From contig JAJZQH010000002.1 in NCBI GenBank assembly GCA_021810905.1, positions 62,001-126,000 on the forward strand: a stretch of 64,000 nt of DNA. The letters run 5' to 3'. The notes beneath the pieces were generated by a model. The model did no database searches. It saw only the letters and a program-made list of their open reading frames with translations, and had not been told where the DNA came from. The position numbers were made by a program, and so were the translations under genes. The DNA is from a bacterium. GTDB taxonomy: Bacteria > UBA10199 > 2-02-FULL-44-16 > JAAZCA01. Shown here in pieces: positions 13,675-33,618 of the stretch (the first letter of the stretch is position 1; each line of letters starts with the position of its first letter).

Positions 13675-13803
13675 TTTTTGCCTGTTTCCCGTTTTTATCT
13701 TTTTGAAAATTCTCGTCCTCGAAAAGTATAAAAATACCCACCAAGCCATTTATCGTGACAGCCTAATATATTGAATTATAATGATTATATCGCTGGCGTC
13801 TTT

Positions 13804-13819
13804 TGGCACACCCCTTGCT
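13804..13819 (+). promoter_or_regulatory. Sigma-54 promoter of beta-helix gene 1
   Basis: TGGCACACCCCTTGCT, a full consensus match, 46 bases before the ATG. A block containing TTTTTATCTTTTTGAAAA and AAAAATACCCAC lies 70-115 bases upstream and is conserved at the second copy (36664-36735). Confidence 0.75.
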
Positions 13820-13865
13820 TATCTCTATGGGCGATGACGTACAAGTGTCCTCTGGGGAGGGCAGG

Positions 13866-15467: not shown

Positions 15468-18400
15468 GTTCGCCGGCGATGCGCCGCGCCAATTCAAATT
15501 CCTTCTTCATGAGGTGCGTTTCGCTCCTGAGCTTCAATATGCGAAACCTGTAAGAATTCGCAAAGGCGTTGCTCGGCATGCTGCTGAGAAGCGCCTCTGC
15601 GCGGTCGAAATAGGTGTTCTCAAGCTCGTAGTCTCCCTTATAATAAAAGACCTCGCCGAGTCCTTCATACGCACACATTTTCAGGATATTGTCGTTTCCA
15701 GCGCCGGCGCTGGCATCGAAATAGACGATCGCCTTGTCCCAAGCCTTCAGCTCCTTGTAGCAATGCCCCATGTGGTTCCAGATATGGGCGGATAGTCGTC
15801 TGTACTCATCATTGCCCGCAAAACTCGCACTGGCGGCGATTCTCTTGTTGCACGCCTCAATGGATTTCTCGAACTCGTCCATATCATGGTAGACGTTAGC
15901 AAGTACGCCATAAGCCAAATAAATGTACAGTCCGGAATTCAAGACGGTGGCAAGAGAATGCACTTTCAAGGCGTATTCCAACGACCTCTCGTGCTGTCCC
16001 GCAAGCCTGTGGATTTCCGCTAAGTCAAGATACGCGTTCGCAAGATCGATAACGTTGAGTTTCTTTCGATTGATGACTTGTTCGGCCTTAGTGGCTGCAC
16101 CGTAATAATCGGCGAGGGCGCGCAAAACACGATACAAGTAGTTGTTGCTGATGCGGTCAGTGATTTCCGCACGAAGGGTCTGCTCAATCCGTTCACTTTC
16201 CTCGAAGATTTCCTTCGCTTTGTTCAAGGGATTCACCGAGCGATCTCCGTCTGACAGCGACGTTTCCAGATAATAACGCGCCTCATAATTCAGGAGCATG
16301 GGATAGGCCGCCGTGTTATTTCGGGTCATGCCCTTGAGCTCTTCGATAACGCCCTTGGCCTTGTCTAGTTCGCGATAGTTGAGAAGATAGGCGATCTCTC
16401 TCAGTCTGAAAATCACTTCCAAGGAAGGGAATGCTCCTTCGACGAGTTTCAAACCGTCATTGTTGATTTGTAATGTTTCCTCGCGACGATTGGAATAGTG
16501 ATATGCCTCAGCGAGCAGGAGGTCGATATAGGCCAATAAACTCTTCTTTGGGGTTTCAGCAAGTTTCTTTGCCTCTTTCAGGAGTTCAATCGCGGTCCTG
16601 CATTTTCCCTCGCGGTAAAGCATCTCCCTTCCCAACACGATACAATAGCGCATGGCCATGGTCCTGTCGGCGCCGAAGGCACGATGAAGCATGATCGCAT
16701 GACGCTGGTTCTCGTCCCTGGTCGTGAAGTTGCCGAGATAATCGGCAATATCTGTATGTATTGTCGCTCTGAATCGATGATCCATTTCTTCGTGGATCAA
16801 TTCAGGCATGTAGTCTTTATCGACAAACGAATATGTCTTGGCCGCAGGATCGTGGTGTACAACGCCTCTCTGCACGAGGTTATTGAGCGCCTGCGGATTG
16901 GTATAACAATGCAGGAACTCTTTGACGTCTTTCTCGCGCAAAGACGGGAGGATGGGCTTACAGCACCAACACGCCATGATCTCGGCAACCTCCTGATCGG
17001 GTCGGGGGAGGAAGCGATATTCCGCAAGCAGGCGTTCGCGCGTGGATGCGGGGGCTTGCTGTGCCGAACGCGCGATCTCAGGGATCTCCGCCAGCACCAG
17101 TTCCCCGCTGGCATCGAACAGCACTCCCTTGCTGTCCAATTCCTGAAGCGTGTCCACCAATTCACGCGGAATGCCTGCTGTACGGCGCAACAGGGCCTCG
17201 GCGCGGTCGTGGTCTATCGGCTTACTCTTAAACGCAGGAGTGGACGCGAGGTATTCTCCGATATCGGTCACCGTGAAGGGCTTGAGCTCGATCGTGGTGA
17301 TGAGGTCAGGATCTACCTCTCCCAACCTCTCCTTACAAAGGAGAGGGGTACCAGAGGTTTCCGTAAACACCAGCATCGCCTCTTGAATGTCGCTGTAGGT
17401 GGTCTCGGTGCGCTTGTGTTCGGCGATGAGCCGGGAAAGGCCGGAGATTGCTGAAACTGCAGCGTCGATATACCCCCTTCCTTTGTAAGGAGGGGAAGGG
17501 GGAAGCAGGTCGTGGTCGCTTTCGCGATCTACCCCCTCCGACTCCCCCTTACAAAGGGGGAGAGAACCTTGTAGTTCCTCAAGATTATCCACGAGCACGA
17601 GCAAAGGTTTGGCGTTTTCCGAGAGGTCCCTCGTGAGGTTCGCGATCTTGCTTTCCAATGCCTCTTGAGTCGCGGGCAACGTGATCGCGTGGATCGAGAG
17701 TTTCTCCACGTGCCGCTCCGCGGTTTCACGGATGCGATTCAGAAAATGCGTTTTCCCGAGCCCCCTGGCGCCCGCAATCCGAAAGATCGGTGCCACGGGC
17801 GATTTGCCCTCGATAAGAGCGCGTATATTGAACTCAACAGCCTCCACGTCCTGATCCCGGCCGATATATCGGTTCATTTCGGGCCTGAGATAAGATCCGA
17901 GTGTATCCGGAGTGTCCTTGAACGCATCGGGCAGGTGGGTGGCCAGGGCGTTGATCACCGCGCGCGCGTTGCCGTAGAACCGATCTGAGGGATTGCGCTC
18001 AAGGAGGTGCATGACGATGGTATCGAGATACTCTGGAACAAATCCTTCGTGGCGGCGATGCGCCGATGACGGCGGACTGATCTTCAGGTTTGGCTCACGC
18101 TCTTCTATGAACCTCCGAACGGCTTCGCGATCCCCTGTTACAGGCCTCGGGAATGGAAACCTTATTCCCCACGTGATGCAATAATACATCACCGCTGCCA
18201 TCGAGAAGAGATCGGCCCTTGCATCTACGAGATCTTTCTGACCAAGCGCGACTTCCGGCGCCATGGTGGCGGATGTGCCGCGAAAATCCCCGCCGTATTC
18301 CTCAGGAGTTATCGCAAGCCCGAAATCTATGATCTTGACGATCGGTTTTCCTTCGTCCTCCTGCACGAGGATATTGCCCGGCTTGATGTCCAAGTGAATG

Positions 18401-18861
18401 ATTCCGTTCCTATGGATGTAATCCAGCCCGCTCAAAGCCTGGACGAATAGAGGAACCATATCAACGGGCTTCCATCCTCGTACGTGCTCCGCCAGGGACT
18501 TACCCTCTATGAACTCATACACGATATAGTAATGCCCGTAGTGGAAGCCGGTCTCGTAAACCTTGGCAATGTTTGGATGATTAAGGCCAGTGAGCCACTG
18601 ATATTCTGACTTGAAGTCGTCGACGTTTCGCTCGTAGAGCCGATGGATTTCTTTGGCAAGTTCTTTAGGATTGCGCTCAACTCCAGGCCTTCTCTTCTTT
18701 ACGACCTCCGAGATCTTTTTTTCGACCGATTCCTTGTTTAGCACTTTGATGGCCACGCGCACGCCATCCGGCGAGAGGGCGTCATGTACGACGCCTGCGG
18801 CGCCGCTGGCGATATTGGCCTTCGTTATTGTGTAGCCGTCAAATGAAGACGCGCTGTTCAT
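15382..18861 (-). CDS. Ser/Thr protein kinase - ATPase - TPR protein, copy 1
   Basis: Protein of 1159 residues. The kinase domain spans about 8-290 and has all key residues: VAIK Lys39, HLDIKPGN with Asp158 and Asn163, DFG Asp179, and APE. Next is a P-loop ATPase like those of STAND/AAA proteins (AGARGLGKT, 363-371; Walker B PLLVLVDNLEEL), then a helical/TPR C-terminal half (about 700-1159). The architecture resembles PknK-type kinases with an ATPase sensor. It overlaps the upstream pseudokinase by ATGA, so the two are translationally coupled. Three palindromic repeat elements are inserted in frame at 17313, 17473 and 17531. It probably phosphorylates targets in response to a ligand sensed by the TPR part; the PP2C gene would reverse this. 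Confidence 0.9.
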   Translation of the reverse strand: MNSASSFDGYTITKANIASGAAGVVHDALSPDGVRVAIKVLNKESVEKKISEVVKKRRPGVERNPKELAKEIHRLYERNVDDFKSEYQWLTGLNHPNIAKVYETGFHYGHYYIVYEFIEGKSLAEHVRGWKPVDMVPLFVQALSGLDYIHRNGIIHLDIKPGNILVQEDEGKPIVKIIDFGLAITPEEYGGDFRGTSATMAPEVALGQKDLVDARADLFSMAAVMYYCITWGIRFPFPRPVTGDREAVRRFIEEREPNLKISPPSSAHRRHEGFVPEYLDTIVMHLLERNPSDRFYGNARAVINALATHLPDAFKDTPDTLGSYLRPEMNRYIGRDQDVEAVEFNIRALIEGKSPVAPIFRIAGARGLGKTHFLNRIRETAERHVEKLSIHAITLPATQEALESKIANLTRDLSENAKPLLVLVDNLEELQGSLPLCKGESEGVDRESDHDLLPPSPPYKGRGYIDAAVSAISGLSRLIAEHKRTETTYSDIQEAMLVFTETSGTPLLCKERLGEVDPDLITTIELKPFTVTDIGEYLASTPAFKSKPIDHDRAEALLRRTAGIPRELVDTLQELDSKGVLFDASGELVLAEIPEIARSAQQAPASTRERLLAEYRFLPRPDQEVAEIMACWCCKPILPSLREKDVKEFLHCYTNPQALNNLVQRGVVHHDPAAKTYSFVDKDYMPELIHEEMDHRFRATIHTDIADYLGNFTTRDENQRHAIMLHRAFGADRTMAMRYCIVLGREMLYREGKCRTAIELLKEAKKLAETPKKSLLAYIDLLLAEAYHYSNRREETLQINNDGLKLVEGAFPSLEVIFRLREIAYLLNYRELDKAKGVIEELKGMTRNNTAAYPMLLNYEARYYLETSLSDGDRSVNPLNKAKEIFEESERIEQTLRAEITDRISNNYLYRVLRALADYYGAATKAEQVINRKKLNVIDLANAYLDLAEIHRLAGQHERSLEYALKVHSLATVLNSGLYIYLAYGVLANVYHDMDEFEKSIEACNKRIAASASFAGNDEYRRLSAHIWNHMGHCYKELKAWDKAIVYFDASAGAGNDNILKMCAYEGLGEVFYYKGDYELENTYFDRAEALLSSMPSNAFANSYRFRILKLRSETHLMKKEFELARRIAGELRPLAGSDSKKIEECDELESRLSAAVSS
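17313..17352. repeat. Palindromic interspersed repeat, in frame inside kinase 1
   Basis: Core CTCTCCTTACAAAGGAGAG. Translated as TPLLCKERLGEVD just before the conserved PDLITTIELKPF. In the paralogue at 30098 the same position holds a different repeat (31543-31593). Confidence 0.7.
17473..17502. repeat. Palindromic interspersed repeat, in frame inside kinase 1
   Basis: CCCCCTTCC-TTTGTAAGGAGGGG-AAGGGGG type element; translated as PPSPPYKGRGY. It sits with the next element directly after the Walker B segment. Confidence 0.7.
17531..17564. repeat. Palindromic interspersed repeat, in frame inside kinase 1
   Basis: Core CTCCCCCTTACAAAGGGGGAG, translated as SLPLCKGESEGVD directly after LVDNLEELQG. 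The paralogue has a G-rich repeat at the equivalent position (31391-31431). Confidence 0.7.
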
Positions 18862-19859
18862 ACGCTGAAGGAGGAAAGGTTGCTCGTGCCTTCGGGTGAC
18901 ATCTCCAGAGTTTCGTTCGGCCAGTATTCCCTGAAGGCGTTCGCGAGATCGTCCGCATTGTCATACGTCCGCTTCTCCGGATCTTTGCGCAATAGCCCCA
19001 GGATTATTTCGTTCAGCTCGGCGGGGATGGCCCTGTTATAGTGAGCCGGAGGCGTTGTGACGTCGTGCTCTTCGTTCACTATCTGGGCAAGCCGCGGCTT
19101 GTCCGAGCGGGCATCCACGCGGTGTTCAAGCGGCTGCCTGCCAGTGAGCGCGTTGTACATAGTAACGCCCAAGGAATATAGGTCCGCCCTGGCGCCTATG
19201 CGGTCACTTTGGTTGAGGATTACTTCGGGCGCCATATAAAGTGCGGTGCCCGCATATTCACCCTTGTTACCCGTCATCGGAACCGCAAGGCCGAAATCGG
19301 TGAGCTTTGCGGACGGAGTATCCGCCTCGAAGTCGATATGGATGCGCGTAGGCTTCACGTTCAAATGCAGAAAACCATTCTGGTGAATGTAGGTAAGCCC
19401 GTCCAATACCTGCGTAAATATATAGATGAGCTGCTTCGGATTCAACTTTTGCGCTGCATAAGCGAGGTCAACTCCCGGCGCATATTCTGATACTATGACG
19501 AGCTGATTCCGTTCCTTGTCGTGGCTCCATCCGTGCGTAGCCGCTACATGGGCATTGCCAAGGCCCCTAATTCGTTCAACGGAATCGATGAGGTTTTTTT
19601 CGTATTCTTCAACGTATCGAGCCGCCTCGGCCTGCGCGGTCTCGATAGCAGTGCCATTCTGGAACGCAATGATCTGATAGTGCTCGACGATTCGCTCCCT
19701 GTCTATGTATGTAAGCGTGACCTTCGCTCCCGACTTGTCTCTTGCGAGATACGAGGTCCACTTGAGGCTCGATCTGATCGGTCTGACGATATTGTAACTC
19801 TGCATGATCTCGCCGTGCTGTATCGCCCACTCGCTCGTGTTCTTTTTTGGATCATCCAT
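18858..19859 (-). CDS. Pseudokinase of the Ser/Thr kinase family, copy 1
   Basis: Protein of 333 residues with a protein-kinase fold but missing catalytic residues. The VAIK lysine is Thr50 (KVTLTYID). HRDLKPxN reads HLNVKPTR, so catalytic Asp is Asn167 and the metal-binding Asn is Arg172. DFG (Asp188) and APE are kept. An insert around residues 60-100 (AFQNGTAIETAQAEAARYVE) is shared with the copy at 29104. It is encoded directly before the active kinase with an ATGA overlap, which suggests an allosteric partner or scaffold of that kinase. Divergent from the PP2C gene at 19942. The same substitutions in both copies argue for selection rather than decay. Confidence 0.85.
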   Translation of the reverse strand: MDDPKKNTSEWAIQHGEIMQSYNIVRPIRSSLKWTSYLARDKSGAKVTLTYIDRERIVEHYQIIAFQNGTAIETAQAEAARYVEEYEKNLIDSVERIRGLGNAHVAATHGWSHDKERNQLVIVSEYAPGVDLAYAAQKLNPKQLIYIFTQVLDGLTYIHQNGFLHLNVKPTRIHIDFEADTPSAKLTDFGLAVPMTGNKGEYAGTALYMAPEVILNQSDRIGARADLYSLGVTMYNALTGRQPLEHRVDARSDKPRLAQIVNEEHDVTTPPAHYNRAIPAELNEIILGLLRKDPEKRTYDNADDLANAFREYWPNETLEMSPEGTSNLSSFSV

Positions 19860-19941
19860 GAGGCCTCCTCTATGATCGAGAAACTTATTAAAGATAGCAA
19901 AAACATTGAAAAAAGGCCACTGTTTAGGTTATAGTTTTGAA

Positions 19942-20832
19942 ATGAACGCACAAAAGAGCCTCGTATTCAAAGCAGCCGCGGCCTCTGACATAGGCGGGCG
20001 GAGGAACAACGAAGACGCGTTTATCGTCAACGAGGACGCGGGCCTTTTCATCGTTGCCGATGGCATGGGCGGGCATGACAAGGGCGAGGTGGCCAGTTGG
20101 TTCACCTCTGAAAATCTTGAGAGGATCATCAAGGAAGCAACGTCATCAGCTGATAACAACCTGACGCTCGATCCGATATTGCCCGGCGGGCCGCGGGCGC
20201 CTGATTACGACCAGCTGATGGAATATGCGGTTCTTGTCATTAATCAAAAACTCTTTAATCTTAATGAAAAGCTCCTTGAAAAAGAATTCCCTGTCCACAA
20301 TACAGAGGATGCAGCCCTCATCGAATCCATGAAAAAACGCCGGCGCATGGGAACCACCCTTGTATCTCTCCTGCTGCGCGGTGGACGCGCCTATATCACG
20401 CACGTGGGAGACTCTCGCGCATATCGCATTGCGAACAATGAAATCTTGCAGCTGACTCACGATCACTCTTGGGTTGAAGAACGCGTGCGCGACGGCACGC
20501 TTACGCCTGAGCAGGCAAAGACGCATGAGAAGCGCAACGTGATCACTCGTTCCGTGGGCTTCAATCCTGAGCTAAAGGCAGACATAGACGCGTTGACCCT
20601 CTATCCACCCGAGCGTTTCCTGCTCTGCAGCGATGGATTGAGCGGCGTAGTGGATGAAGAAGATATGCTGAAAATTGCTCAACATAAGGACCTTGGAGCC
20701 ACCTGCAATAAATTGATCGAAGAAGCAATAGATCATGGCGCAAGGGACAATGTCACGGCAGTGCTCGTGGACATATCCACATCCGTCGGTGAAGAGCAGG
20801 GATACAAACCGCGCACGGATTGGACAGAGTAG
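19942..20832 (+). CDS. PP2C-family Ser/Thr protein phosphatase, copy 1
   Basis: Protein of 296 residues, a soluble PPM/PP2C phosphatase. Metal-binding motifs are present: SDIGGRRNNEDAF, VADGMGGHDKGEVAS, HVGDSRAYRI, LLCSDGLSGVVDEED and ARDNVTAVLVDIS. It is divergent from the pseudokinase-kinase pair and is the likely antagonist of that kinase. The start MNAQKSLVFKAA was chosen by alignment with the copy at 28099-28995; no strong ribosome-binding site precedes it. The two phosphatase genes are near-identical over long blocks, unlike the more diverged kinases. Confidence 0.9.
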   Translation: MNAQKSLVFKAAAASDIGGRRNNEDAFIVNEDAGLFIVADGMGGHDKGEVASWFTSENLERIIKEATSSADNNLTLDPILPGGPRAPDYDQLMEYAVLVINQKLFNLNEKLLEKEFPVHNTEDAALIESMKKRRRMGTTLVSLLLRGGRAYITHVGDSRAYRIANNEILQLTHDHSWVEERVRDGTLTPEQAKTHEKRNVITRSVGFNPELKADIDALTLYPPERFLLCSDGLSGVVDEEDMLKIAQHKDLGATCNKLIEEAIDHGARDNVTAVLVDISTSVGEEQGYKPRTDWTE

Positions 20833-20849: not shown

Positions 20850-20975
20850 CTAGACAACTATTTTTAAGTTACTATTTTTTAGTGGTTTGGCTGTAGCGGA
20901 AGCCGAATCAGAAACCGAAGCACCCATGTCTAAATCGGGCATGACTTCTTTAGAGATCGGTCGGATGGCATTCAT
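20850..20975 (-). CDS. 41-codon ORF coupled to the binding-protein gene
   Basis: It starts at an ATG overlapping the stop of the upstream gene (ATGA) and encodes 41 residues, beginning MNAIRPISKEVMPDLDMG and ending NSNLKIVV. There is no membrane segment. Position at the end of the maturase-peptide-binding protein operon and the coupling support translation. It could be a second small peptide of this operon or a chance ORF. Confidence 0.35.
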   Translation of the reverse strand: MNAIRPISKEVMPDLDMGASVSDSASATAKPLKNSNLKIVV

Positions 20976-22639
20976 TGCCGCTCTTTGATCTGCAGATCCT
21001 TCGGCACCCAGACGTTGCGGAGGCCGGAGAAGAAATTGTTGGAGTCGGTGCTGAATCCCCTGAACCTGTCCTGCACGAGGATCTTTGTCTTCTTGATAAA
21101 GAGAGGAATGCCGGGCGGGTCGTCCATCATCGCCTTGACGAGTTCAACCTGCGCCTGCTTTCTTATAGGCTCGTCCCTGTTGTAACGGACTTCATCGAGA
21201 AGCCGATCGACATCGGGATTTGAATATGATGCAAAATTAGTCTGCCTTTGATTCGAGTGCCACAATAAATATTGCATCCTGATTGAATCGTGTATGGCAA
21301 TTGGTATCATCGCCGCGTCATATTGTTTGTCATATAGCTTTTTAAACATATCTGCCATATCGCACTCTTCAATTTTTATTATAACTCCAATATTTTCAAA
21401 TGCTGATTTGACCAAGTTGAGGATTCGCGTTGTCAACGCAGAGCCCTTTACGGTTGATACGCTAATCACCATGTCTTTCCCGCGATTATTTAGAATATGA
21501 TCCTTATCGTTGTCCGTGTAGCCGGCCTTTTCGAATAATTCCTGGGCAAGCCTTGGCTCAAACGTATAATGAACTGAGCTTCCCTCCTTACCCCAAAACG
21601 AATTCAACGACATATCTATGATATCGCCTTCGGATTGCCTGATATATTTTGCCACATAATTCCGATCCAGGCCGTAATTGAGCGCTCTTCGAACGTTCCT
21701 GTCTCTGAGCTCCGGATCTTTCTGGTTCAATATCAGAAGATATATCAGACCCATTCCGGTATCTATGTTATCGATGCCTGGAACCCCAAGGATGGATTGT
21801 ATATCCGCAGAGTCATCAACAAACACCAAGTCCAGCCGACCAGCTATCAGGCTTGATATGCACGCCCTTTGTGATTGCAGGATATCAACTTCAATTTTGT
21901 CCAGATTGGGACGCCCTCGAAAGTGTCTTTCAAATGACCTGAGTTCAATCCTGTCTTTTGAAAATTCCACGAGTTCATAAGGTCCCGTGCCAATTGTCTT
22001 TGCACCTTCAAGACCTGAGGCGAGCAGTTCTTCCGGAAGTATTCGAATGAGAAAATAAAAATGAGGAAGGAAGGAGTCGTATCGGTTGAAAAAGAACTGA
22101 ATGGTCGAGTCGTCAATGACCTTGAGTTCCTTCAGATTCGACAGCCCGAACGAAAAAAACCCGTTCGATGGCGATCTTATTGCATTGTATGTGGCGGCAA
22201 CATCTCGCGCGGTCAGCTTCTTGCCGTTGTGAAAGAAAACGTCATCTCTGAGAAAGAATGTCCACGTCTTGCCGTCTTCGGATATCTCCCATCTGTTGGC
22301 CAGCGAAGGAATCATCTCGCCAGAATCCGTATATTCTATCAGGGAATCGAATATGAGCTGGCTCATATTTCCTGATATTGTGGATGCATTCGTAAGCGGA
22401 TTTATCTCCGTGGGTTCGACGCTGTCGCAAATTTTGAGGTCGTCGCCACGATCGGCGGCAAAGATCGGCGATGCAACGGAGACGATCAACAGGGCGGCAG
22501 AAAATGCGATCAACAACCGCGACCATGCAGAGCTCGCGATCGCCGCACGATCTACCTCCCCCACCCCCTCCTTACAAAGGAGGGGAGAAAGAAATGCTGC
22601 CGGAATGCATTCGGTCATGATCGGACGTCGCAATGACAT
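20972..22639 (-). CDS. Oligopeptide/dipeptide ABC-type substrate-binding protein
   Basis: Protein of up to 555 residues, SBP_bac_5 (DppA/OppA) family. Family segments are SLANRWEISEDGKTWTFFLRDDVFFHNGKKLTARDV (about 110-145), a GPYELV block, and VRRALNYGLDRNYVA. The Sec signal is SRLLIAFSAALLIVSVASPIFA, but it is preceded by ~40 extra residues that include a translated palindromic repeat (LSPLLCKEGVGEVD). The true start is therefore uncertain. No permease or ATPase gene is in the window, so it may act as a sensor or chaperone for a peptide, or use a transporter encoded elsewhere. It follows the 25-codon peptide gene across a hairpin. Confidence 0.85.
   Translation of the reverse strand: MSLRRPIMTECIPAAFLSPLLCKEGVGEVDRAAIASSAWSRLLIAFSAALLIVSVASPIFAADRGDDLKICDSVEPTEINPLTNASTISGNMSQLIFDSLIEYTDSGEMIPSLANRWEISEDGKTWTFFLRDDVFFHNGKKLTARDVAATYNAIRSPSNGFFSFGLSNLKELKVIDDSTIQFFFNRYDSFLPHFYFLIRILPEELLASGLEGAKTIGTGPYELVEFSKDRIELRSFERHFRGRPNLDKIEVDILQSQRACISSLIAGRLDLVFVDDSADIQSILGVPGIDNIDTGMGLIYLLILNQKDPELRDRNVRRALNYGLDRNYVAKYIRQSEGDIIDMSLNSFWGKEGSSVHYTFEPRLAQELFEKAGYTDNDKDHILNNRGKDMVISVSTVKGSALTTRILNLVKSAFENIGVIIKIEECDMADMFKKLYDKQYDAAMIPIAIHDSIRMQYLLWHSNQRQTNFASYSNPDVDRLLDEVRYNRDEPIRKQAQVELVKAMMDDPPGIPLFIKKTKILVQDRFRGFSTDSNNFFSGLRNVWVPKDLQIKERQ
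22551..22591. repeat. Palindromic interspersed repeat in signal-peptide region
   Basis: Core CCCCTCCTTACAAAGGAGGGG, the same family as inside kinase 1. It lies in frame in the N-terminal extension of the binding protein. Confidence 0.65.
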
Positions 22640-22658: not shown

Positions 22659-22688
22659 GGCCGGCTGCAAAATGCTCTGCAGCCGGCC
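22659..22688 (-). terminator. Hairpin between peptide gene and binding-protein gene
   Basis: Perfect 11-bp stem GGCCGGCTGCA / TGCAGCCGGCC with an 8-base loop, followed on the minus strand by TTGATTTAT. A partial terminator or processing site here would let the short peptide mRNA accumulate over the downstream gene, a usual arrangement in peptide-precursor operons. Confidence 0.55.
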
Positions 22689-22722: not shown

Positions 22723-22800
22723 TTAATGCCAGAATGGCCAGCAGTACGTTGGCGCCGGATTCGTTCCCTTTGTGCCGTCCTTAACTATCGTGATCTTCAT
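22723..22800 (-). CDS. Candidate RiPP precursor peptide (25 residues)
   Basis: Short ORF with ribosome-binding site AAGGGGGAAG just before its ATG. The leader starts MKITIVKDGTKG, the linker is TNPAP, and the C-terminal core is TYCWPFWH, with four aromatics, one Cys and a terminal His. It lies 144 bases downstream of a radical SAM/SPASM gene on the same strand and is followed by a hairpin. Radical SAM/SPASM enzymes next to very short genes typically modify aromatic or Cys side chains of the peptide. The reading is direct; the precursor function is inferred from context. The ORF is too short for standard gene calling. Confidence 0.6.
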   Translation of the reverse strand: MKITIVKDGTKGTNPAPTYCWPFWH

Positions 22801-22892
22801 ACTTCCCCCTTTTCCCCTGCCGTGGTGTGTACGGCTGTTAGGTGTTTAACCGGCGGTCACACCAGTCCGCCAGTGCGCGCCAGTGAACGCTT

Positions 22893-22936
22893 CTCTACCC
22901 CACCCCAACCCTCCCCTTACAAAGGGGAGGGAGGTC
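22893..22936. repeat. Palindromic interspersed repeat between maturase and peptide genes
   Basis: Core CCCTCCCCTTACAAAGGGGAG with the CTACCCCACCCC flank typical of the family. It lies in the intercistronic region and could affect mRNA stability. Confidence 0.65.
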
Positions 22937-22944
22937 TCAAGTTT

Positions 22945-24315
22945 TCAGGCAAAGATGCCGGATGGTTCGGCCTCGGCGTTGTCCTGGTTTGCGCGGGCCG
23001 AAAGCATGTACGGAACTATCTTCTCATAAAAATCCTTATCGCATACGGTCGCATCGACGTTTCGCCCCGAAAGATACGCGGGCAGCCTGCAACCGCCGGC
23101 GCAAACCGGCAGGTATGAGCATTCTTTACAATTGTCGCACCACGATCGCAGCGTCTTGAGCTGTTCTCCAAACTCGGTCGGTTCGTCCATGCGAATCGAT
23201 CCGATCTCGAAGTCCGAAATTCCCACGAATCCGGAACACGGATATATCTCCCCGCCAACGCCGATCGTCATGATGTTGTTCCTGTAGAAATCGCATGGAC
23301 CAACGTTCGGGTCGTTTATGGTTGGCAACCCTGTGCGGTTTATCTTCTCGCGCATATCGAGCATCATCCGCACCTGCTCCTGTGTGAACGCACCGTGGTC
23401 GCAGCTCCTGTTGGCTGCCGTCCTGCCTCCTATTCCAGGTTTCATTATCGGTTTGAACCTCACATCGGCGATCGCATGCCGCCACGGCGCAACGGCCAAT
23501 TTTTCGAGCAGCGAATCAAACGCACACATATCTCCATCTGGAAAATTTCCTCCGATGCACAATCTGAGATCTTTCGCAGCGTATCCGAGATTTTCCCAGA
23601 TCGTATCAAACGTTCCTCCGCCCTTTGCGAAGACCCTCATCCTGTCGTGATGCCGCTTGTCGCCATCGAGCGTCACCTTGATCCATGACAATCCAGCTTT
23701 CGCGAGGATGCTGGATACCTCCCGAGTCAGGAGCGTTCCGTTCGTGATGGCGCCGGCCTTGAATGCAACGCCCTCTTCTTTGCAGAACTCCTTGATATCG
23801 CCCGATATCGTTTCTATGGCCGGAACGTTCATGAGCGGCTCGCCCCCGAAGAAGAAGAGGCTCAGCTTCTTGGCGTTGCGGCGAACTATCTGTCGCTTGA
23901 GCCACGCCGCAGCAGCCATTGCCGTCTCGTGATCCATAAAGCTGGATTGGTTTAGTTGAGCGTGTTCCATGCAATAGCGGCAACGCATGTTGCAGGCCAT
24001 TGTAGTGGTGATGTGCGCCACCATGGACTCGCTTTGACCCTGCAGCACGTTGTGATACCAGCTTTCGAATGCGCCGATTTCGTCAGCATCCGCGCTCACA
24101 AGGACTCCCATCTGTGCGAGCGTTGCAGCCGCCTGATTTTCGGTCTCGGAAAGCGCAGCGCCACATTCTATTTTTTTCATAAACGCATCGACCGTCTCTT
24201 CAGGACTTTGATCCACCACGAGATGGTGATCGTATAGGGTATGATAGATATGAACGCGGCTTGAACGTTCGTCGGCAGGAGTCACAACCGCAAATCTGGA
24301 CCTGCGAAATCCCAT
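22945..24315 (-). CDS. Radical SAM/SPASM peptide maturase
   Basis: Protein of 456 residues. Residues 1-95 are an N-terminal domain that may bind a leader peptide. The radical SAM core begins with CNMRCRYC (Cys108, 112, 115), followed by FFFGGEPLMN and AITNGTLL. The C-terminal SPASM region has Cys341, Cys360 (EIYPCSGF), Cys393/396/399 (CDNCKEC), Cys405, Cys409 and Cys425, enough for two auxiliary 4Fe-4S clusters. The start ATG was chosen because GGGGGA precedes it by five bases; an in-frame ATG lies six bases upstream. A sigma-54 type site lies 41 bases upstream. The 25-codon peptide gene downstream is the likely substrate. Alternative: an anaerobic sulfatase-maturase-like enzyme, but no sulfatase is present. 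Confidence 0.88.
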   Translation of the reverse strand: MGFRRSRFAVVTPADERSSRVHIYHTLYDHHLVVDQSPEETVDAFMKKIECGAALSETENQAAATLAQMGVLVSADADEIGAFESWYHNVLQGQSESMVAHITTTMACNMRCRYCMEHAQLNQSSFMDHETAMAAAAWLKRQIVRRNAKKLSLFFFGGEPLMNVPAIETISGDIKEFCKEEGVAFKAGAITNGTLLTREVSSILAKAGLSWIKVTLDGDKRHHDRMRVFAKGGGTFDTIWENLGYAAKDLRLCIGGNFPDGDMCAFDSLLEKLAVAPWRHAIADVRFKPIMKPGIGGRTAANRSCDHGAFTQEQVRMMLDMREKINRTGLPTINDPNVGPCDFYRNNIMTIGVGGEIYPCSGFVGISDFEIGSIRMDEPTEFGEQLKTLRSWCDNCKECSYLPVCAGGCRLPAYLSGRNVDATVCDKDFYEKIVPYMLSARANQDNAEAEPSGIFA

Positions 24316-24355
24316 CGGCATCCCCCATGCGTAAAGAATTTCTTTGCGTAGAATA

Positions 24356-24371
24356 AGCAAGAAGCATGCCG
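24356..24371 (-). promoter_or_regulatory. Sigma-54 promoter of the maturase operon
   Basis: Minus strand CGGCATGCTTCTTGCT; GG and GC are at proper spacing, with one mismatch (C for the first T of TGGCA). It is divergent from the NtrC-type activator gene, a classical arrangement. Confidence 0.6.
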
Positions 24372-24444: not shown

Positions 24445-24659
24445 GAAGGGTGCGCTGCATTTAAACGATGGTAAAAAATCACTCCATAAAAAAAACTCCT
24501 TTCCCGGGAATCGCTGGTCAGTGTTCATCCAGAAAATTTCTTATCCGTTATGGATAAAAATCGCTCCACTGTGAAATGCGCGTTCAAATAATTTATTATA
24601 TCTATAAAGAAGTTGCTTTACGTCAGAACTCCATATTATAAGTCAACGATTTCAATCAT

Positions 24660-26099
24660 ATGGGCGACTCAACCATGATCGCAACGGAACAAGAATCCAT
24701 AAGCCGCTCGGAATTTTCTAACATTTCCATACTCGTCGTCGACGACGACGATTCAATGCGTGACATCCTTACGTACATCCTCCAGTCGAGCTATAACCTG
24801 AGCGCGGTCTCCTGCGGCACCGATGCGCTCAAGGCGCTCAAAGAAAAACACGTCGATATCGTGCTGCTCGATCTGTGCCTGCCTGACATGAGCGGTCTTG
24901 ACGTTCTGCGCGAAATCAAGAGCAACCGGCCGGACATCGTCGTTATTATGATTACCGTAGTTAAAGAAATCAAAAGCGCAGTGACGGCGATCCAGCTTGG
25001 CGCCTTTGATTACATCAACAAGGAATTCGACTACGATGAATTGCGCGCGCTGATAGGGCGCGCCGTTGAACAGCTGAAATCGCATCGCGAGATATCATAC
25101 CTGCGCGAAGAGGTGGAACAGCGCGTCCCCCAGGAGTTCGTGATCGGCAAGACCGAAGAGATGCAAAAGACGTGCGAGCTGATGCGAAAAGCCGCTGCGG
25201 TTCCTTCTACGGTTCTCATCACCGGGGAGTCCGGCACGGGCAAAGAGATGGTAGCGCGACAGATACACAAGTGGAGCGATCGCGCATCCGCTCCGTTTGT
25301 AGCGATCAATCTTGCGTCCATCCCTTCCGAACTCATCGAGTCGATCCTCTTCGGACACGAAAAGGGGAGTTTCACGGGCGCGCATTGTCAGCGCAGCGGA
25401 AAGTTCGAGCTCGCAAGCAGCGGCTCGCTCTTTCTCGACGAGATCAGCGAGCTCAGGGTGGACCTGCAGGCAAAGCTGTTGCGCGCCATACAGGAGGGCG
25501 AGGTGGAACGGGTGGGCGCTGCGCATCCCGTACCCATAGACGTGCGCCTGATCGCCGCCACCAATATAGATCTGCAGGCAGCTGTCAGGAACGGCGGCTT
25601 CCGCGAGGACCTCTTCTATCGCATCAATGTTCTTCCGATTCATCTCCCGCCTCTCCGCGAACGAAGATCGGATGTTCCAGAACTGATAGATCTCTTCCTC
25701 AATCGCTACAGCAAACGTTTTCACAGAAATATACGCGGCATGACAGATGAAGCTCGCGATATACTGTGTGCGTACAACTGGCCTGGCAACATCAGGGAAC
25801 TTGAAAATCTGCTCGAACGAATGGTGGCGCTTGCCGACGGCGATATGCTTACGATATATGACGTCCCGGTAGAGTACAGGGTCTTCCCCTTCCCGTTTGC
25901 AAAGGGGACGTACAAAATGACTGACGCCCTCAAGATGGCTGTTGAAGCCTTTGAGAGAGCATTTATACTCCAGGCCCTGAAGGAGGAGAATTGGCATCAA
26001 AGTCGCACCGCAGAGCGATTGGGGGTCCATCGCAAGACGCTCGAGTACAAAATCAAGAGATTCAAAATCCAGAAAGATCCGTCATCGTCAGAGGAATAA
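24660..26099 (+). CDS. NtrC-family sigma-54 response regulator
   Basis: Protein of 479 residues. A receiver domain (about 22-140) has acidic pocket DDDD and phospho-acceptor Asp71 in LLDLCLPDMSG. The sigma-54 AAA+ domain (about 160-390) has Walker A GESGTGKE, the sigma-54 contact loop GSFTGA, SLFLDEI and an R-finger region FREDLFYRINVLP. A Fis-type helix-turn-helix lies at the C-terminus (SRTAERLGVHRKTLEYKIKR). It is divergent from the maturase operon and eight bases upstream of the TonB receptor gene. It is the only sigma-54 activator in the window and the best candidate to drive the sigma-54 promoters here. Its phosphodonor could be one of the three histidine kinases. Confidence 0.93.
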   Translation: MGDSTMIATEQESISRSEFSNISILVVDDDDSMRDILTYILQSSYNLSAVSCGTDALKALKEKHVDIVLLDLCLPDMSGLDVLREIKSNRPDIVVIMITVVKEIKSAVTAIQLGAFDYINKEFDYDELRALIGRAVEQLKSHREISYLREEVEQRVPQEFVIGKTEEMQKTCELMRKAAAVPSTVLITGESGTGKEMVARQIHKWSDRASAPFVAINLASIPSELIESILFGHEKGSFTGAHCQRSGKFELASSGSLFLDEISELRVDLQAKLLRAIQEGEVERVGAAHPVPIDVRLIAATNIDLQAAVRNGGFREDLFYRINVLPIHLPPLRERRSDVPELIDLFLNRYSKRFHRNIRGMTDEARDILCAYNWPGNIRELENLLERMVALADGDMLTIYDVPVEYRVFPFPFAKGTYKMTDALKMAVEAFERAFILQALKEENWHQSRTAERLGVHRKTLEYKIKRFKIQKDPSSSEE

Positions 26100-26107: not shown

Positions 26108-28084
26108 ATGCCGAAAATAATACAACTGTGCGCAGCTCTCTGCCTGCTGCTCGCATCACCGGCTTTTGCCGAAGACATCTCCAGCCAGGACAAGGATTCG
26201 GAGCCGACGGTGGCTGCGGAGCTTCCGCCCGTAGTCATCACGGCCAACAGGCGCATAGAACCCGTTGACGAAGTCACTTATCCCGTCACGGTCATAAGCA
26301 ACGACGAGATCAAGGACAAAGGCGCCCAGTCCGCGGCGGATGCGCTGCGTACCGTCCCCGGAATAAACATCAATTCAGCTGGAAGCCCTGCCGACGATAA
26401 CGACATACGCATCATGGGCAGCGACCGGGATGAAGTGCTCGTACTCATAGACGGCGTCCCGATCAATACGGTAGTGGATAATCGCCCGAACCTCATCGGC
26501 ACGATCCCCACTGAAAACATCGAGCGCATCGAAGTGCTGGAGGGCGCGCACAGCGGCATGTATGGGAGCAGGGCGGTGGGCGGCGTAATCAACATAATTA
26601 CGAAGGAAGGCGAGGAGGGCTTCTCGTCCGACGTGAACTTCAGGGCCGGAAATCTCGGGCGCTTCATCGAAGATGCGGCGATAAGCTTCGGCCGCGGCAA
26701 TCACCGCCTGCGCGTGAGCTACGAACGGTGGGATGAAGCGGGAAGATTTGCCAACGATCGGCTGGGGCAAAACACCGCGGCGCTAAACTGGCGCTACAAT
26801 TTTTCAGACGAGCTTACTATCCAGCTGAGCCCACAGGTCTTCAACACGAACCAGGATCTTGCGTTCGATTCCATCACCGAAGGAAACGTAGTTTATTATC
26901 CGCGCGACTTCAACCGCCACCTCACGCAGGATACGGTCCTCATTCCGCTCTCCCTCACACTCAACATGAAGAAGTGGTGGGAGGCGATCTTCGAGTACAG
27001 CTATTATTATCAGTTCATGCGGCTGACCAATCCGCCGACCGGGGATACCACACCGGGAACCGTGATCGGCGATCAGTACGCGAGGAGCAACGAGGACCGG
27101 CACAGGTTCAGCCTGCGCAATACATTCACACCTCTGGATCAAGACGGATTCAAGGACCTCTTCACAGTCGGATTCGATATCGACGCAGAGCACCTCTCCT
27201 TCGTGAACGGGCCGTTCGCGGGGCCTCATCAGGAATTTCCGCTGCCGGATCAGAAGTTCGACCGCCAGAATTACGCCGTCTTCCTGCAGAATATTTTACG
27301 CTACAAGGAATACGTCTCTTTCGTTGCGGGGTTCAGATACGACGACAACACCATGTTCGGAAAAGAGCCGACTTTCCGTGGAAGCGTTGCCGCGCGCATA
27401 CCGCAATCGAAAACCACGTTCAAGCTCGCGTACTCGGACACGTTCAACGCGCCGCTGATCACTCTATTCGTCTTCGATATCCAGCCTCAGAAAGAGACCG
27501 CGCGTAACTATTCGGCCGGCGTAGAACAGGAATTGTGGGGAAAGGGCAAACTATCATCTTTCTTCTTCTACAAGGACTACGGCAGCATCTTTTTCGATCT
27601 GGATGATATCGTGGGAACCCATGACGCTTTCGCAATGGGCGTTGAGACGTCTCTTGAACTCACGCCATTGCCGTGGTTGGCCTTCTTCGGATCGTACACG
27701 TGGACGAAGGCTCGCGACAGGGAGCGAGACGTGCCGCTCCCGGAGAGGCCCGCTCACGTCTGGAAGGCATCGCTCACGGTGGAACCCGTGGAGAGGCTCA
27801 TCCTGAGAGGAGATCTCTCCGTGACCGGCGAGCAGTACTGGGGCACAAACACCGGGTTCATCTTTGTGGATTCTCAGGGCCGCGTGAGCAACGGAGTGCT
27901 GCCGGGCTTTGTGAAACTCGATTTGAGCGGCAGATATACGTTTCAGTTCAAGAACAAATATATACCTGAGCTTGCGCTGACGACGACCGTGGAGAATGTG
28001 TTGAACCGCAGTTACGAAGAGCAGTTCGGTCGACCGGCGCCTGGAATCAACTTCCTCTCCGGAATTTCGGCGAAATTGTTTTAG
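26108..28084 (+). CDS. TonB-dependent outer-membrane receptor
   Basis: Protein of 658 residues. The signal peptide ends SPAFA, a TonB-box-like ELPPVVITA follows, then a plug domain (DALRTVPGININSAG, IRIMGSDRDEVLVLIDGVPI, IERIEVLEGAHSGMYGSRAVGGVINIITK). A 22-strand type barrel ends in a C-terminal aromatic (SGISAKLF). It is most like BtuB or siderophore/peptide receptors. It lies eight bases behind the activator gene and near the peptide/maturase operon, so uptake or sensing of the modified peptide (or a metal-peptide complex) is possible but unproven. The start ATG is preceded by GAGGAATAA at a rather long distance. Confidence 0.92.
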   Translation: MPKIIQLCAALCLLLASPAFAEDISSQDKDSEPTVAAELPPVVITANRRIEPVDEVTYPVTVISNDEIKDKGAQSAADALRTVPGININSAGSPADDNDIRIMGSDRDEVLVLIDGVPINTVVDNRPNLIGTIPTENIERIEVLEGAHSGMYGSRAVGGVINIITKEGEEGFSSDVNFRAGNLGRFIEDAAISFGRGNHRLRVSYERWDEAGRFANDRLGQNTAALNWRYNFSDELTIQLSPQVFNTNQDLAFDSITEGNVVYYPRDFNRHLTQDTVLIPLSLTLNMKKWWEAIFEYSYYYQFMRLTNPPTGDTTPGTVIGDQYARSNEDRHRFSLRNTFTPLDQDGFKDLFTVGFDIDAEHLSFVNGPFAGPHQEFPLPDQKFDRQNYAVFLQNILRYKEYVSFVAGFRYDDNTMFGKEPTFRGSVAARIPQSKTTFKLAYSDTFNAPLITLFVFDIQPQKETARNYSAGVEQELWGKGKLSSFFFYKDYGSIFFDLDDIVGTHDAFAMGVETSLELTPLPWLAFFGSYTWTKARDRERDVPLPERPAHVWKASLTVEPVERLILRGDLSVTGEQYWGTNTGFIFVDSQGRVSNGVLPGFVKLDLSGRYTFQFKNKYIPELALTTTVENVLNRSYEEQFGRPAPGINFLSGISAKLF

Positions 28085-28098: not shown

Positions 28099-28995
28099 TT
28101 ATGGGGTATCCGTCCAGTCTCCTTGCGATGGATGCTTCTCTCCCTCGTCGCGCGGTTTAGATATATCCACGAGCACTACCGTGACGTTATCCGTGGCGCC
28201 CCGATCTATTGCTGCCTCAACCATTTGCGCGCATGCGGTCCGGAGATCGTGCATCTGTCCGAGCTTCAGCAATTCATCTTCATCCACGACACCGCTCAAT
28301 CCGTCGCTGCAGAGCAGGAAACGCTCCGGCGGATAGAGGGTCAAAGCGTCGATATCAGCCTGTAACTCAGGATTGAAGCCCACGGAGCGCGTAATAACGT
28401 TTCGCTTCTCGTGCGTCTTTGCCTGCTCGGGCGTAAGCGTGCCGTCGCGAACGCGTTCTTCAACCCAGGAATGGTCGTGAGTCAATTGACTGATTTCATT
28501 GTTGGCAATGCGATATGCGCGAGAGTCTCCCACGTGCGTAATATAGGCGCGTCCGCCGCGCAGCAGGAGAGATACAAGGGTGGTGCCCATGCGGCGGCGC
28601 TTCTTTAAAGTTTCCATGAGCGCGGCATCGCCAGCGTTTAGGGTCGGATAATCCTTTTCGAGAAGTTTTTCATTTAGCTCGAAGAGCTTCCGGTTAATGA
28701 CGAGAACCGCATATTCCATCAAGTGATCGTAATCAGGAGCCCGCGATTCGCCGGGCAATATCGGATCGAGCGTCAGGTTGTTATCAGCCAATGGCGTTGC
28801 TTCCTTGATGATCCTCTCAAGATTTTCAGAGGTGAACCAGCTGGCCACTTCACCCTTGTCATGTCCGCCCATGCCGTCGGCCACGATGAAAAGGCCGGCG
28901 TCCTCATTGACGATGAACGCGTCTTCATTGTTCTTGCGGCCGCCCACGTCGGAGACTGCCGCAGCCTTGAACGTCACTTTTTTCGAGCCCTTCAT
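28099..28995 (-). CDS. PP2C-family Ser/Thr protein phosphatase, copy 2
   Basis: Protein of 298 residues, very close to the copy at 19942. All PP2C motifs are kept (SDVGGRKNNEDAF, VADGMGGHDKGE, HVGDSRAYRI, LLCSDGLSGVVDEDE, ATDNVTVVLVDIS). It is divergent from the pseudokinase gene at 29104. With that gene and kinase 2 it forms a second phosphatase-pseudokinase-kinase module in mirror orientation to the first. The stop lies 14 bases from the TonB receptor stop (convergent). Confidence 0.92.
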   Translation of the reverse strand: MKGSKKVTFKAAAVSDVGGRKNNEDAFIVNEDAGLFIVADGMGGHDKGEVASWFTSENLERIIKEATPLADNNLTLDPILPGESRAPDYDHLMEYAVLVINRKLFELNEKLLEKDYPTLNAGDAALMETLKKRRRMGTTLVSLLLRGGRAYITHVGDSRAYRIANNEISQLTHDHSWVEERVRDGTLTPEQAKTHEKRNVITRSVGFNPELQADIDALTLYPPERFLLCSDGLSGVVDEDELLKLGQMHDLRTACAQMVEAAIDRGATDNVTVVLVDISKPRDEGEKHPSQGDWTDTP

Positions 28996-29103
28996 TACGT
29001 TCTATATATCCCTTCATCCAGCGTGTTTCAACAGCGCTTATTGATTCTGGCGATATTTCGGCAATTCTGGTATCCTCCGCCAAAATAATCTCGGAGGGAA
29101 TCC

Positions 29104-30105
29104 ATGGACGATCCCAAGAAGACCAACACGAACGAGTGGGCGATACAGCATGGAGAAAATATAGCGAGCTACAACATCGTCCGGCCTGTCCGATCAAGCC
29201 TCAAGTGGACTGCATATCTTGCAAGGGACAATGATGGGAAACGTGTGACACTGACGTTTATCGATAAACAGAGGATCATGGAGAATTATCAGATCATCGC
29301 CTTTCAGAACGGCACGCCGATCGAAACCGCGAAGGCCGAGGCCGCCAGGCATGTCGAGGAATATGAAAAAGACCGCATCGATGCGATCCAGCGAATAAAG
29401 GGCCTTGGAAATGCGCGGGTAGCAAAAACGACCGGTTGGAGCTATGACAAGGAGCGGGATCAGCTCGTGATTATCTCGGAATACACGCCTGGCTACGACC
29501 TGGCGTACGCAGCGGAGAAGCTGAATCCAAAACAACTGATCTATATATTCGTTCAGGTTCTCGACGGACTTAAATTCATTCACCAGAACGGCTTCCTTCA
29601 TCTGAACCTCAAACCGCCGCGCATATACATTGATTTTGAACCGGACTCTCCGGCGGTAAAGATAACGGATTTCGGATTCGCGATCCCCATGAAGGGATAT
29701 ACAAAGGAATGCGGCGGCACGGCGCTTTACATGGCGCCGGAGGTGATACTGAACCGGAGCGATCAGATCGATGCCAGAGCGGATCTCTACTCCTTCGGCG
29801 TGACGATGTATTGCGCGCTCACGGGAAGAAATCCGCACGAACACCGCATCGACGCCAGGGGAGACAAGGCTCGCATGGCTGAAGCGGTAAAGAGCGAAAC
29901 GGGCGTCAACACGCCGCCATCTCATTATAACAGGGAAATACCGAAGGAACTGGACCGTATCATTCTCGAGCTCCTGCAGAAAGAGCCTGAGAATCGGAAA
30001 TATACTGACGCGGACGATCTCTCGGCGGAGTTCACGGAGCTCTGGCCCGCTGAATGCAAAGATATGTCGCGTGCCGGCACCACCACCCTTTCAACCTATG
30101 ACTGA
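29104..30105 (+). CDS. Pseudokinase of the Ser/Thr kinase family, copy 2
   Basis: Protein of 333 residues, the same length as the copy at 18858. The beta-3 Lys is replaced (RVTLTFID). The catalytic loop is HLNLKPPR, so Asp is Asn and the metal-binding Asn is Arg. DFG (ITDFGFA) and APE remain. Strong ribosome-binding site GGAGGGAATCC. It overlaps the active kinase start by eight bases. Identical loss of the same residues in two diverged copies indicates a maintained non-catalytic role. Confidence 0.85.
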   Translation: MDDPKKTNTNEWAIQHGENIASYNIVRPVRSSLKWTAYLARDNDGKRVTLTFIDKQRIMENYQIIAFQNGTPIETAKAEAARHVEEYEKDRIDAIQRIKGLGNARVAKTTGWSYDKERDQLVIISEYTPGYDLAYAAEKLNPKQLIYIFVQVLDGLKFIHQNGFLHLNLKPPRIYIDFEPDSPAVKITDFGFAIPMKGYTKECGGTALYMAPEVILNRSDQIDARADLYSFGVTMYCALTGRNPHEHRIDARGDKARMAEAVKSETGVNTPPSHYNREIPKELDRIILELLQKEPENRKYTDADDLSAEFTELWPAECKDMSRAGTTTLSTYD

Positions 30106-33100
30106 TTCCGCCGTATTTGACGTCTATACGATAAAGAAGGCCAACATCGCCAGCGGCGGTGCCGGCGTCGTACACGACGCAGTCTCCCCTGACGGCCGCC
30201 GTGTTGCCATCAAGGTGCTCAACAGGGAATCAGTCGAAAAAAAACTCGCTGAGATTATAAAGAAGAAAAAACCGGGCATTGAGAAGAATTCCGACGAATT
30301 TGCAACGGAGCTTCGCCGCCTGTACGAACTCAACGTCGATGAATTCAAGTCGGAATATCAGTGGCTCGCGCGCCTCAACCACCCCCACGTCGCCAAGGTG
30401 TACGGAACCGGCTTTCATGAAGGTCGTTTCTATATCGTTTATGAATTTATCGACGGGAAACCGCTGGCTTCTCATGTGCATGGATGGAAACCCGTCGAGA
30501 TGATCCCGCTCTTCATCCAGGCGCTCTCCGGTCTGGATTACATCCACAGAAACGGCATCATTCACCTCGACATCAAATCGGAAAATATTTTGGTGCAGAT
30601 TGTTGAGGGAAGGCCCGTCGTCAAAATAATCGACTTCGGCGTTGCCGTAATGCCTGAAGAATACAAAGGAGGGGTACGCGGTACGATTGAAACGATGGCG
30701 CCCGAGGTAGCGCTCGGGCAAAAGGAACTCGTGGATGCGCGGGCAGACCTCTTCTCCTTTGCCGCCGTGATGTATCACTGTATTACGTGGGGAGTCAGAT
30801 TCCCCTTTCCCAGGCCAACCACCAGCGACATGGATTTTCTCCGCCACTACATACAGGAGCGTGAGCCTGCGCTTGAAGTCAAACCGCCGTGCCATGTCCA
30901 TCGCCGCCGCGAGGGGTTTGCCGTACCGTTTCTGGACACGGTAGTCATGCGGTTATTGGCGCATGATCCAAAGGATCGATTTTACGGAAACGCGCGCGCG
31001 GTCATCAACGCGCTTGCCACTCACCTGCCGGATTCGTTTCAGGATAGTTCTGACGCGCTTGGCTCGTATCTGCGGCCGGAGATGAACAGGTATATCGGCA
31101 GGGATAAAGAGGTGGAAGCAGTGGAATCCAACGTGCGAGCTCTCATTGAAGGCAAATCGCCAGTCGCGCCGATCTTTCGGATTGCGGGCGCGAAGGGGCT
31201 CGGCAAGACGCATTTCCTCAATCACATCCGCGAGACCGCAGAGCGGCACGTCGACAAAATCTCGATTCATACGATCACGCTGCCCACGACTCAAGAGGCG
31301 TTGGAAAGTAAGATCGCGATTCTCACACGGGAGTTATCGGAAAACACCAGACCCGTGCTCGTACTCGTGGATAATCTGGAGGAACTGGACGCCCCCCTCT
31401 CCCCCGGAGGGAGAGGGTCGGGGAGAGGGGGATCCGAAGCTATCTCTGCAATCTCCGGCCTCGCACGTCTCATCGCCGAACACAAGCGCTCCGAGACGAC
31501 CTACAGCGACATTCAAGAGGCGATGCTGGTGTTTACAACGGATGTCATCCTGAGACCCCGGGAAACGAGTTGTTTGCCGAAGGATCCCGTGGATACCCTG
31601 GCTGACACTTTACCGCCCGACCTCATCACCACGATCGAGCTCAAACCCTTCACCGCGGTCGATATCGAGGCATATCTCCAAGCCACTCCAGCCTTGAAGG
31701 GTAAACCAATAGACCATGCCCGCGCCGAGGCGCTCCATCGCCGCACGGCAGGCATCCCGCGCGAACTCGTGGACACGCTTCAGGACTTGGACAGCAGGGG
31801 GGTGCTGTTCGATGCGAGCGGGGAACTGGTGCTAGCTGATCTGCCAGCAATGGAGGTTGGGGCACGGAGCGCGCCGCAATCCACGCGCGAGCGCCTGCTC
31901 AATCAATACCGCGAATTTTCGCCACCCGAGCGATGCGCCGCAGACGTACTCGCATGCTGGTGCGCAAGGCCGTTTTTGCCGCTGCCGCGTGAGGAGGATA
32001 TCTCGGGCTTTGTGCAACAATACGCACCGATGCAGGCAATTCACACGCTCGTGCAGAAAGAGGTCATAAGGCACGATGACGATAGAGGTACATACGCATT
32101 CGCGGAGAACGACTACCTGCCAAGCCTGATTCATGATGAGATGGATGAGGCAACAAGAGACGCGATACACAGCGCGATAGCAAATTATCTCTCAACACCC
32201 CCTCTCCCTCGACGGGAGAGGGGTGGGGAGAGGGTGGTAATGTTCCACCTCGCCTTTGGCTCCGATCCACGCGCTGCCATCCGCAACTGCGTCATCCTCG
32301 GCAGAAATTTATTGTACAAGCAAGGCAAATGCTCGACAGCGATAGAGCTCTTTGAGCGCGCCCTTCAGTGTGTCATTGCGAGCGAAGCGCGGCAATCTCC
32401 CAAAGCTGTTCCGCCGGGCAACTGGAAACTCAAGGCGTATGTGTATTCGCTGTTGGCTGAGGCATATTACTATTATGAACGCCCCGCCGAAGTAGCACAG
32501 GCCATCAGCGATGGCCTTGCAATTTGTCAGTCTATTCCGTGGCGGATATCTCTGAAATTAAGATTGGCCGCATATTGCTTAAATTGGCGACGGCTCGATA
32601 AGGCAAGAGAGACAATCGATGAGCTGAAAGACGCACTTGCTCACAGAAAAAAAACCATCGCATATCCTCTGATGCTCAATAATGAGGCCAGGTATTATTA
32701 TGAATTATCGTTATCCATCGAAGAAAAACAGGCAGACCAGATTCATAGAGCAAAAGAGCTGTTTCAAGAGGGTGAGCTCATTGAAAAAATATTCAGCTCT
32801 GATTCCATAAAGCGAATCAACAATAATTCGTTATACGTAGTGCTTCGCTCACTCGGAGACTATTCGCTGGCTGCTGAAAAGGCGAAAAAACGTATTAAAG
32901 ACCGTGAAATGAATATTTTTACTCTCATGGTCTCTTCAGGCGAATTGGCAGAAATCTATCGCTTCGCTCATAAATACGATCAAGCACTGAACTATGCCCA
33001 GAAGGCGCTTTTTTTAGCAAAGGAAGCCGCGCTTGGCCGTTATATCAATTATTCCTATGGGGTGCTGGCTAATATCTACCACGACATGGACGATTTTGAG

Positions 33101-33604: not shown

Positions 33605-33618
33605 ATTATTGACGAAAA
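33593..33618 (+). promoter_or_regulatory. Promoter motif of S8 protease 2
   Basis: CAAC, 14 bases, GACGAAAA, followed by TTAAGATATA. It overlaps the last codons of kinase 2. It matches the sites before protease copies 1 and 3. Confidence 0.55.

Follow-up and report, generated by a model that had tools for sequence, protein, structure and literature searches.

A radical SAM/SPASM maturase gene and the 25-codon gene of its precursor peptide lie, in the stretch of bacterial DNA analyzed here (64,000 nucleotides, hereafter the window, with positions counted from its first letter), within a conserved gene set that also encodes an NtrC-type regulator, a TonB-dependent receptor, a periplasmic binding protein, and a dCache-HAMP histidine kinase. 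We consider it rather probable that the product is a radical-SAM-modified hexapeptide signal that is imported, sensed, and switches on its own synthesis. An earlier note on this DNA made no mention of two of these genes, those for the TonB receptor and the dCache histidine kinase; with them, what had looked like an ordinary RiPP cluster becomes a likely circuit for sensing. The features on which the argument rests are the following.

1–1605, minus strand: dCache-HAMP histidine kinase, with its 3′ end left of the window (G000:C9:61803-63605)
20972–22639, minus strand: periplasmic solute-binding protein, SBP_bac_5 family, start codon uncertain
22659–22688, minus strand: terminator-like hairpin, perfect over 11 bp, between the peptide and binding-protein genes
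22723–22800, minus strand: precursor peptide gene, 25 aa, with leader MKITIVKDGTKGTNPAPTY and core CWPFWH
22909–22931, strand unassigned: palindromic repeat of ~21 bp, CCTCCCCTTACAAAGGGGAGG, a perfect copy in the gap between maturase and peptide genes
22945–24315, minus strand: radical SAM/SPASM maturase, 456 aa, start set by comparison with relatives
24357–24371, minus strand: sigma-54 −24/−12 element CGGCATGCTTCTTGC, GG-N10-GC, matching 8 of 10 consensus letters and lying 56 nt upstream of the maturase start
24551–24568, minus strand: putative, weak activator (UAS) site TGGAGCGATTTTTATCCA, p 0.03 for a motif derived from these same regions
24660–26099, plus strand: NtrC-type response regulator and sigma-54 activator, divergent from the maturase, with a GSFTGA motif
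26108–28084, plus strand: TonB-dependent outer-membrane receptor (Plug and barrel)

The 25-codon ORF is real. It starts 144 nt past the maturase stop codon, ends 83 nt ahead of the SBP_bac_5 gene, and is translated as MKITIVKDGTKGTNPAPTYCWPFWH followed by a stop; its position and spacing, the perfect hairpin behind it, and the binding-protein gene that comes next are all as the earlier note had described them. The ribosome-binding site had been called good: a Shine-Dalgarno sequence is indeed in place (AAGGGGGAAGT-ATG), but its strength is only moderate. The precursor has no signal peptide, and none of the NCBIfam models matches it. When a profile of its relatives was built with the window peptide left out, this peptide nevertheless ranked first among the 2,358 ORFs of the window (E 3.4e-4), and in the same leave-one-out test 8 of 11 other peptides ranked first in their own loci, the exceptions being those of L028, L035, and L037. 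A loose pattern set after the peptides had been seen (20–26 aa, Shine-Dalgarno sequence, C-x4/5-end, basic leader) was matched by 15 of the 417 Shine-Dalgarno-led ORFs of 20–26 aa in 564 kb of DNA, and 14 of these matches (12 distinct genes) adjoin a maturase. The peptide genes of the close pair G060/G193 differ by six synonymous codon changes and one non-synonymous change. A filter for ORFs with W-rich tails was also tried and missed relatives; the recognizable signal is the Cys together with the C-terminal residue, not CW. Within the gap between the maturase and peptide genes, the CCTCCCCTTACAAAGGGGAGG palindrome is a separate curiosity: diverged copies occur inside coding sequence at 22565 (N-terminus of the binding protein) and at 17326 and 17542 (a 1159-aa kinase ORF), where they read as PLLCKEG-like residues.

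Loss of the short ORF beside maturase orthologues had been named as grounds for abandoning the RiPP reading; 14 relatives of the window peptide, distributed over several phyla, adjoin such orthologues. The phylum sample comprised 46 genomes, all of one class, and a maturase was found in 10 of them, the window's own genome included. The other nine are 32–38% identical to the window maturase; one of their contigs (L026) stops just behind the maturase gene, and each of the other eight loci has an adjoining ORF of 22–25 aa. More distant maturases with a short peptide were found in other phyla (L035, L036, L037, L088, L092, and L117), whereas no precursor was found at L089. The searches in the phyla of G059, G060, G224, and G234 covered few genomes, and a single-protein contig search returned one distant locus only. 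Every one of the 15 peptides has exactly one Cys, followed by five residues in 11 peptides, four in two, and six in two, and in 13 of the 15 the C-terminal residue is F, Y, W, H, or M, usually a bulky aromatic. The leaders are Lys-rich in all 15, mostly of the form MK-x-x-V-I-K-K-G. A conserved CWPFW core had been expected, with a Cys-Trp or Trp-Phe crosslink; instead, the relatives end in CLAYFF, CRPVVW, CKPVVY, CAWFKY, CRGHLF, and other tails, conservation in the core is limited to the Cys and the C-terminal residue, and such crosslinks are therefore not indicated, the one constant candidate being the Cys. Across the 15 precursors, a ribosomal precursor, a conserved leader, a variable core, and an adjoining modifying enzyme, as expected of RiPPs, are found together, and we class the peptides, inside the known range of radical SAM biology, as a new family of RiPPs.

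The enzyme has the cysteine pattern of a SPASM radical SAM maturase, and the radical SAM and SPASM cysteines (CX3CX2C; CX9-15GX4C, CX2CX5CX3C, C) are invariant in all 13 sequences compared. In the AlphaFold2 model (pLDDT 81), a strand-helix region at the N-terminus precedes the barrel, in the form expected of a leader-binding domain; the nearest solved structures are CteB (5why), which is the closest, TigE (8vpo), and ChlB with its precursor. The window maturase reaches the cut-off of none of the NCBIfam models. It matches TIGR04280, the geopeptide family, best, scoring 231 bits where 400 are required, and the scores for TIGR03974 (104 against 425) and for the PapB model (134 against 340) fall further below. 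The relatives of the window maturase score 140–283 bits against TIGR04280, and true members 474–636 bits. In the tree, all 17 maturases of the gene set stand apart from the three that exceed the TIGR04280 cut-off, with 100/100 support between the two groups when the other rows are left out; the fork between the 17 and all other rows has only 81/63 support and includes several long rows. A single maturase group carries this gene set.

As far as contigs reach, the order of genes in relatives is NtrC-type regulator, TonB receptor, maturase, peptide, binding protein, and dCache-HAMP histidine kinase, although in the window and in L034 its two halves, one with the maturase and one with the receptor, are divergent. 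No receptor was seen on the L029 contig, where a second, partly seen copy of the binding protein stands in tandem (4469–6554). Outside the class, response regulators vary, and a TonB receptor-like gene is present in L037 and L092, with none at the locus in L035/L088 or L036. In the window, the kinase is in operon orientation, separated from the binding-protein gene by ~19 kb; it is complete in L096 and has HDLRHP and DTGCGI motifs. When the genome was searched with the L033 kinase, which adjoins the binding protein in its own locus, the window kinase was the single orthologue, 46% identical at E 1e-155, with the runner-up at 1e-28; we take it to be the cognate kinase of the gene set. The intervening ~19 kb consist of duplicated kinase, PP2C, and other modules found on both sides of the locus and, because of the gene order in relatives, would represent an insertion. 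These duplicated modules (4833–20832 and 28099–46234 of the window) are 72–80% identical, several of them inverted, and encode PP2C-like phosphatases and, in ORFs of 1159/1177 aa and 333 aa, eukaryotic-like Ser/Thr kinases; long repeat ORFs are present in three copies (10.8–13.8k, 33.8–36.8k, and 40.5–43.7k). Directly behind the sensor kinase, a minus-strand gene (G000:C9:61082-61648; L096 6082–6648), preceded by a TGGATATCTTTTTATCCA palindrome, encodes a protein of 188 aa, part of which is kinase-ATPase-like. The linkage of a histidine kinase and a response regulator to a peptide gene is the genetic arrangement of peptide quorum-sensing two-component systems. No description of this gene set was found in the open-access literature, and the sensing arrangement is probably new.

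The control of the locus is conserved as well. The sigma-54 promoter and divergent NtrC-type activator reported earlier are both present, and a sigma-54-like site precedes the maturase in all 10 class loci, at 31–67 nt in nine and at 292 nt in one. A strong hairpin lies 3′ of the peptide gene in 11 of 11 loci, every one of them with p ≤ 0.02 when compared with shuffles; several of these hairpins end in T-runs and resemble ordinary intrinsic terminators. The palindrome TGGATAA-N4-TTATCCA, a tentative candidate for the sigma-54 activator site, shows enrichment in front of some maturases (p < 0.05 for 6 of 12) and is present in several genomes; its remaining copies mark no sensible regulon, and some lie just past the kinase gene, a position that would also suit a terminator.

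Taken together, the observed genes, their order, the promoter and terminator, and the conserved precursor suggest the following circuit. Sigma-54 RNA polymerase, activated by the NtrC-type regulator, would transcribe maturase and precursor; because of the terminator past the precursor, the binding-protein and kinase genes further downstream should be transcribed less. The N-terminal region of the maturase would bind the leader, and the C-terminal hexapeptide would receive a radical crosslink. The likeliest product is a thioether that joins the single Cys to a residue downstream of it, since this Cys is near-fixed in its distance from the C-terminus and no other core residue is constant. The leader would then be cleaved off and the product would exit the cell by a route encoded outside the locus, which contains no protease or exporter gene. 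Two sets of exporter candidates, a FetAB-like pair (UPF0014) by L034 and ABC ATPases near L027 and L030, were set aside as not conserved in the operon; the L034 transporter (4318–5711) overlaps the kinase gene and may be an exporter or a link to metals. The dedicated TonB receptor would carry external product into the periplasm, where the family-5 binding protein would take it up and present it to, or share it with, the dCache histidine kinase; phosphorylation of the NtrC-type regulator by this kinase would close a positive feedback loop. Sensing is the best reading of a permease-less binding protein that is encoded beside an NtrC-type regulator and a kinase whose dCache domain is periplasmic, and the modified peptide is the sole candidate ligand that the locus offers. 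Weighing against this circuit are the two lineages with no TonB receptor at the locus (L035/L088 and L036), the L089 locus in which no precursor was found, the precursor's lack of a signal peptide, and the lack of protease and exporter genes.

The principal rival, less likely in our judgment but deserving weight, is that the modified Cys/aromatic peptide is a metallophore or serves cofactor acquisition: it would bind metal outside the cell, re-enter by way of the TonB receptor, and reach the binding protein, with the kinase and NtrC-type regulator matching synthesis to supply by feedback and a housekeeping Opp/Nik-type permease finishing uptake. Some of the locus fits such a role, as the TonB receptor is nearest by sequence to BtuB and siderophore receptors, and some cores contain His, Cys, and Lys. 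The model of the binding protein is equally near peptide binders (AppA, DppA, and OppA with a Phr-derived peptide), nickel-chelate binders (NikZ, NikA, and CntA), and AapF with a signaling molecule bound, so that the fold alone cannot choose between signal and metallophore. Against acquisition, no ABC permease adjoins the binding protein in any locus examined, and the pairing of receptor and inner-membrane transporter expected of an uptake locus is thus absent; the absence is not decisive, since Opp-type permeases (OppC) are encoded elsewhere in most of these genomes, G000 included, and the binding protein could still feed transport. In addition, metal-binding residues are not conserved save for the one Cys, and a dedicated dCache kinase with an NtrC-type partner fits sensing at least as well. 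It strikes us as improbable that the peptide is a secreted antimicrobial RiPP and that receptor and kinase serve to detect what the cell itself or a competitor releases: many density-controlled radical SAM RiPPs are inhibitory (PMC13361665), but no immunity gene or dedicated exporter was found in any locus, and each locus encodes one peptide, with a tiny core of conserved length.

Nor do we expect the locus to prove a true geopeptide system, an option that we rate marginally lower still. TIGR04280 is the best NCBIfam match, and the sister group of maturases in the tree likewise comes with a short precursor and, nearby, a TonB receptor and a periplasmic binding protein. The loci whose maturases exceed the TIGR04280 cut-off (L090, L091, and L095) nonetheless differ in both partners: their precursors are of CC-x-G type, ending in MCCWGPFYRYR, TCCTGSVTRS, and ACCSGTGKAKTA, as opposed to a single Cys with a C-x5 tail, and the binding protein of L090 and L091, which accompanies a TonB receptor, belongs to PF04392 and is unrelated to SBP_bac_5. 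L095 has a receptor match, and in L090 a large kinase-matching ORF follows the binding protein. Membership in the geopeptide family fails on the score of 231 bits, below the cut-off of 400, and the set described here may instead work like a geopeptide system. In the open-access literature searched, neither a use of the geopeptide name nor a description of loci of the L090/L091/L095 type was found. Finally, the moderate ribosome-binding site might suggest that the short ORF is a chance frame and that the maturase acts on another substrate, but the leave-one-out profile, the conserved position, the silent substitutions, the terminators, and the strong enrichment beside maturases make this exceedingly unlikely.

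The self-sensed hexapeptide that we favor resembles several known systems in part. CteB/SCIFF and PapB ranthipeptide maturases share the SPASM cysteine pattern and Cys-containing substrates, and CteB the closest solved fold, but SCIFF precursors, as the family name states, have six Cys, against one Cys in a six-residue tail here; with this precursor and a maturase below the family cut-offs, the system falls outside the ranthipeptide/SCIFF families as so defined, although the predicted thioether, from Cys to a C-alpha or other carbon, would be of ranthipeptide or sactipeptide chemistry. In the staphylococcal agr system, the AIP is a short, Cys-containing C-terminal peptide with a hydrophobic end that is read by a histidine kinase. 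The likeness is one of operation only, as the AIP is a thiolactone made by AgrB and sensed in the membrane by AgrC, and the agr system involves neither a TonB receptor nor a binding protein nor a radical SAM enzyme. Among the neighboring genes identified here, a dCache-HAMP kinase and a radical SAM enzyme were seen instead. In streptococci, radical SAM RiPPs are likewise tied to a peptide-signal regulator under Rgg/SHP control (PMC13361665); there the pheromone is a separate short peptide (SHP) that reaches a cytoplasmic regulator through Opp, whereas in the proposed circuit the signal would be the modified product, sensed across an outer membrane. The combination of a periplasmic binding protein with a kinase, or a dCache domain, in reception of an autoinducer has precedent in LuxP-LuxQ and in dCache receptors of AI-2 (PMC7584622), whose ligand is a small molecule and which have no dedicated peptide, maturase, or importer.

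It is tempting to speculate, with somewhat less than even confidence, that these loci represent a multi-phylum class of modified hexapeptide pheromones in outer-membrane bacteria, with TonB-dependent re-import, readout by a binding protein and a dCache kinase, and a core that varies from lineage to lineage in the manner of signal types; geopeptide systems would be the same circuit with another binding protein and core. Peptide pheromones are the standard signaling language of Gram-positive bacteria, and to our knowledge almost none are known in outer-membrane bacteria, where the signal must cross that membrane. As the precursors are so short that most gene callers would miss them, more such peptides are likely hidden. 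If the proposed circuit is correct, outer-membrane bacteria would possess a peptide signal with its own importer, binding protein, and kinase, a function would be suggested for the uncharacterized geopeptide group, and the question of how such a signal operates would be reducible to six genes.
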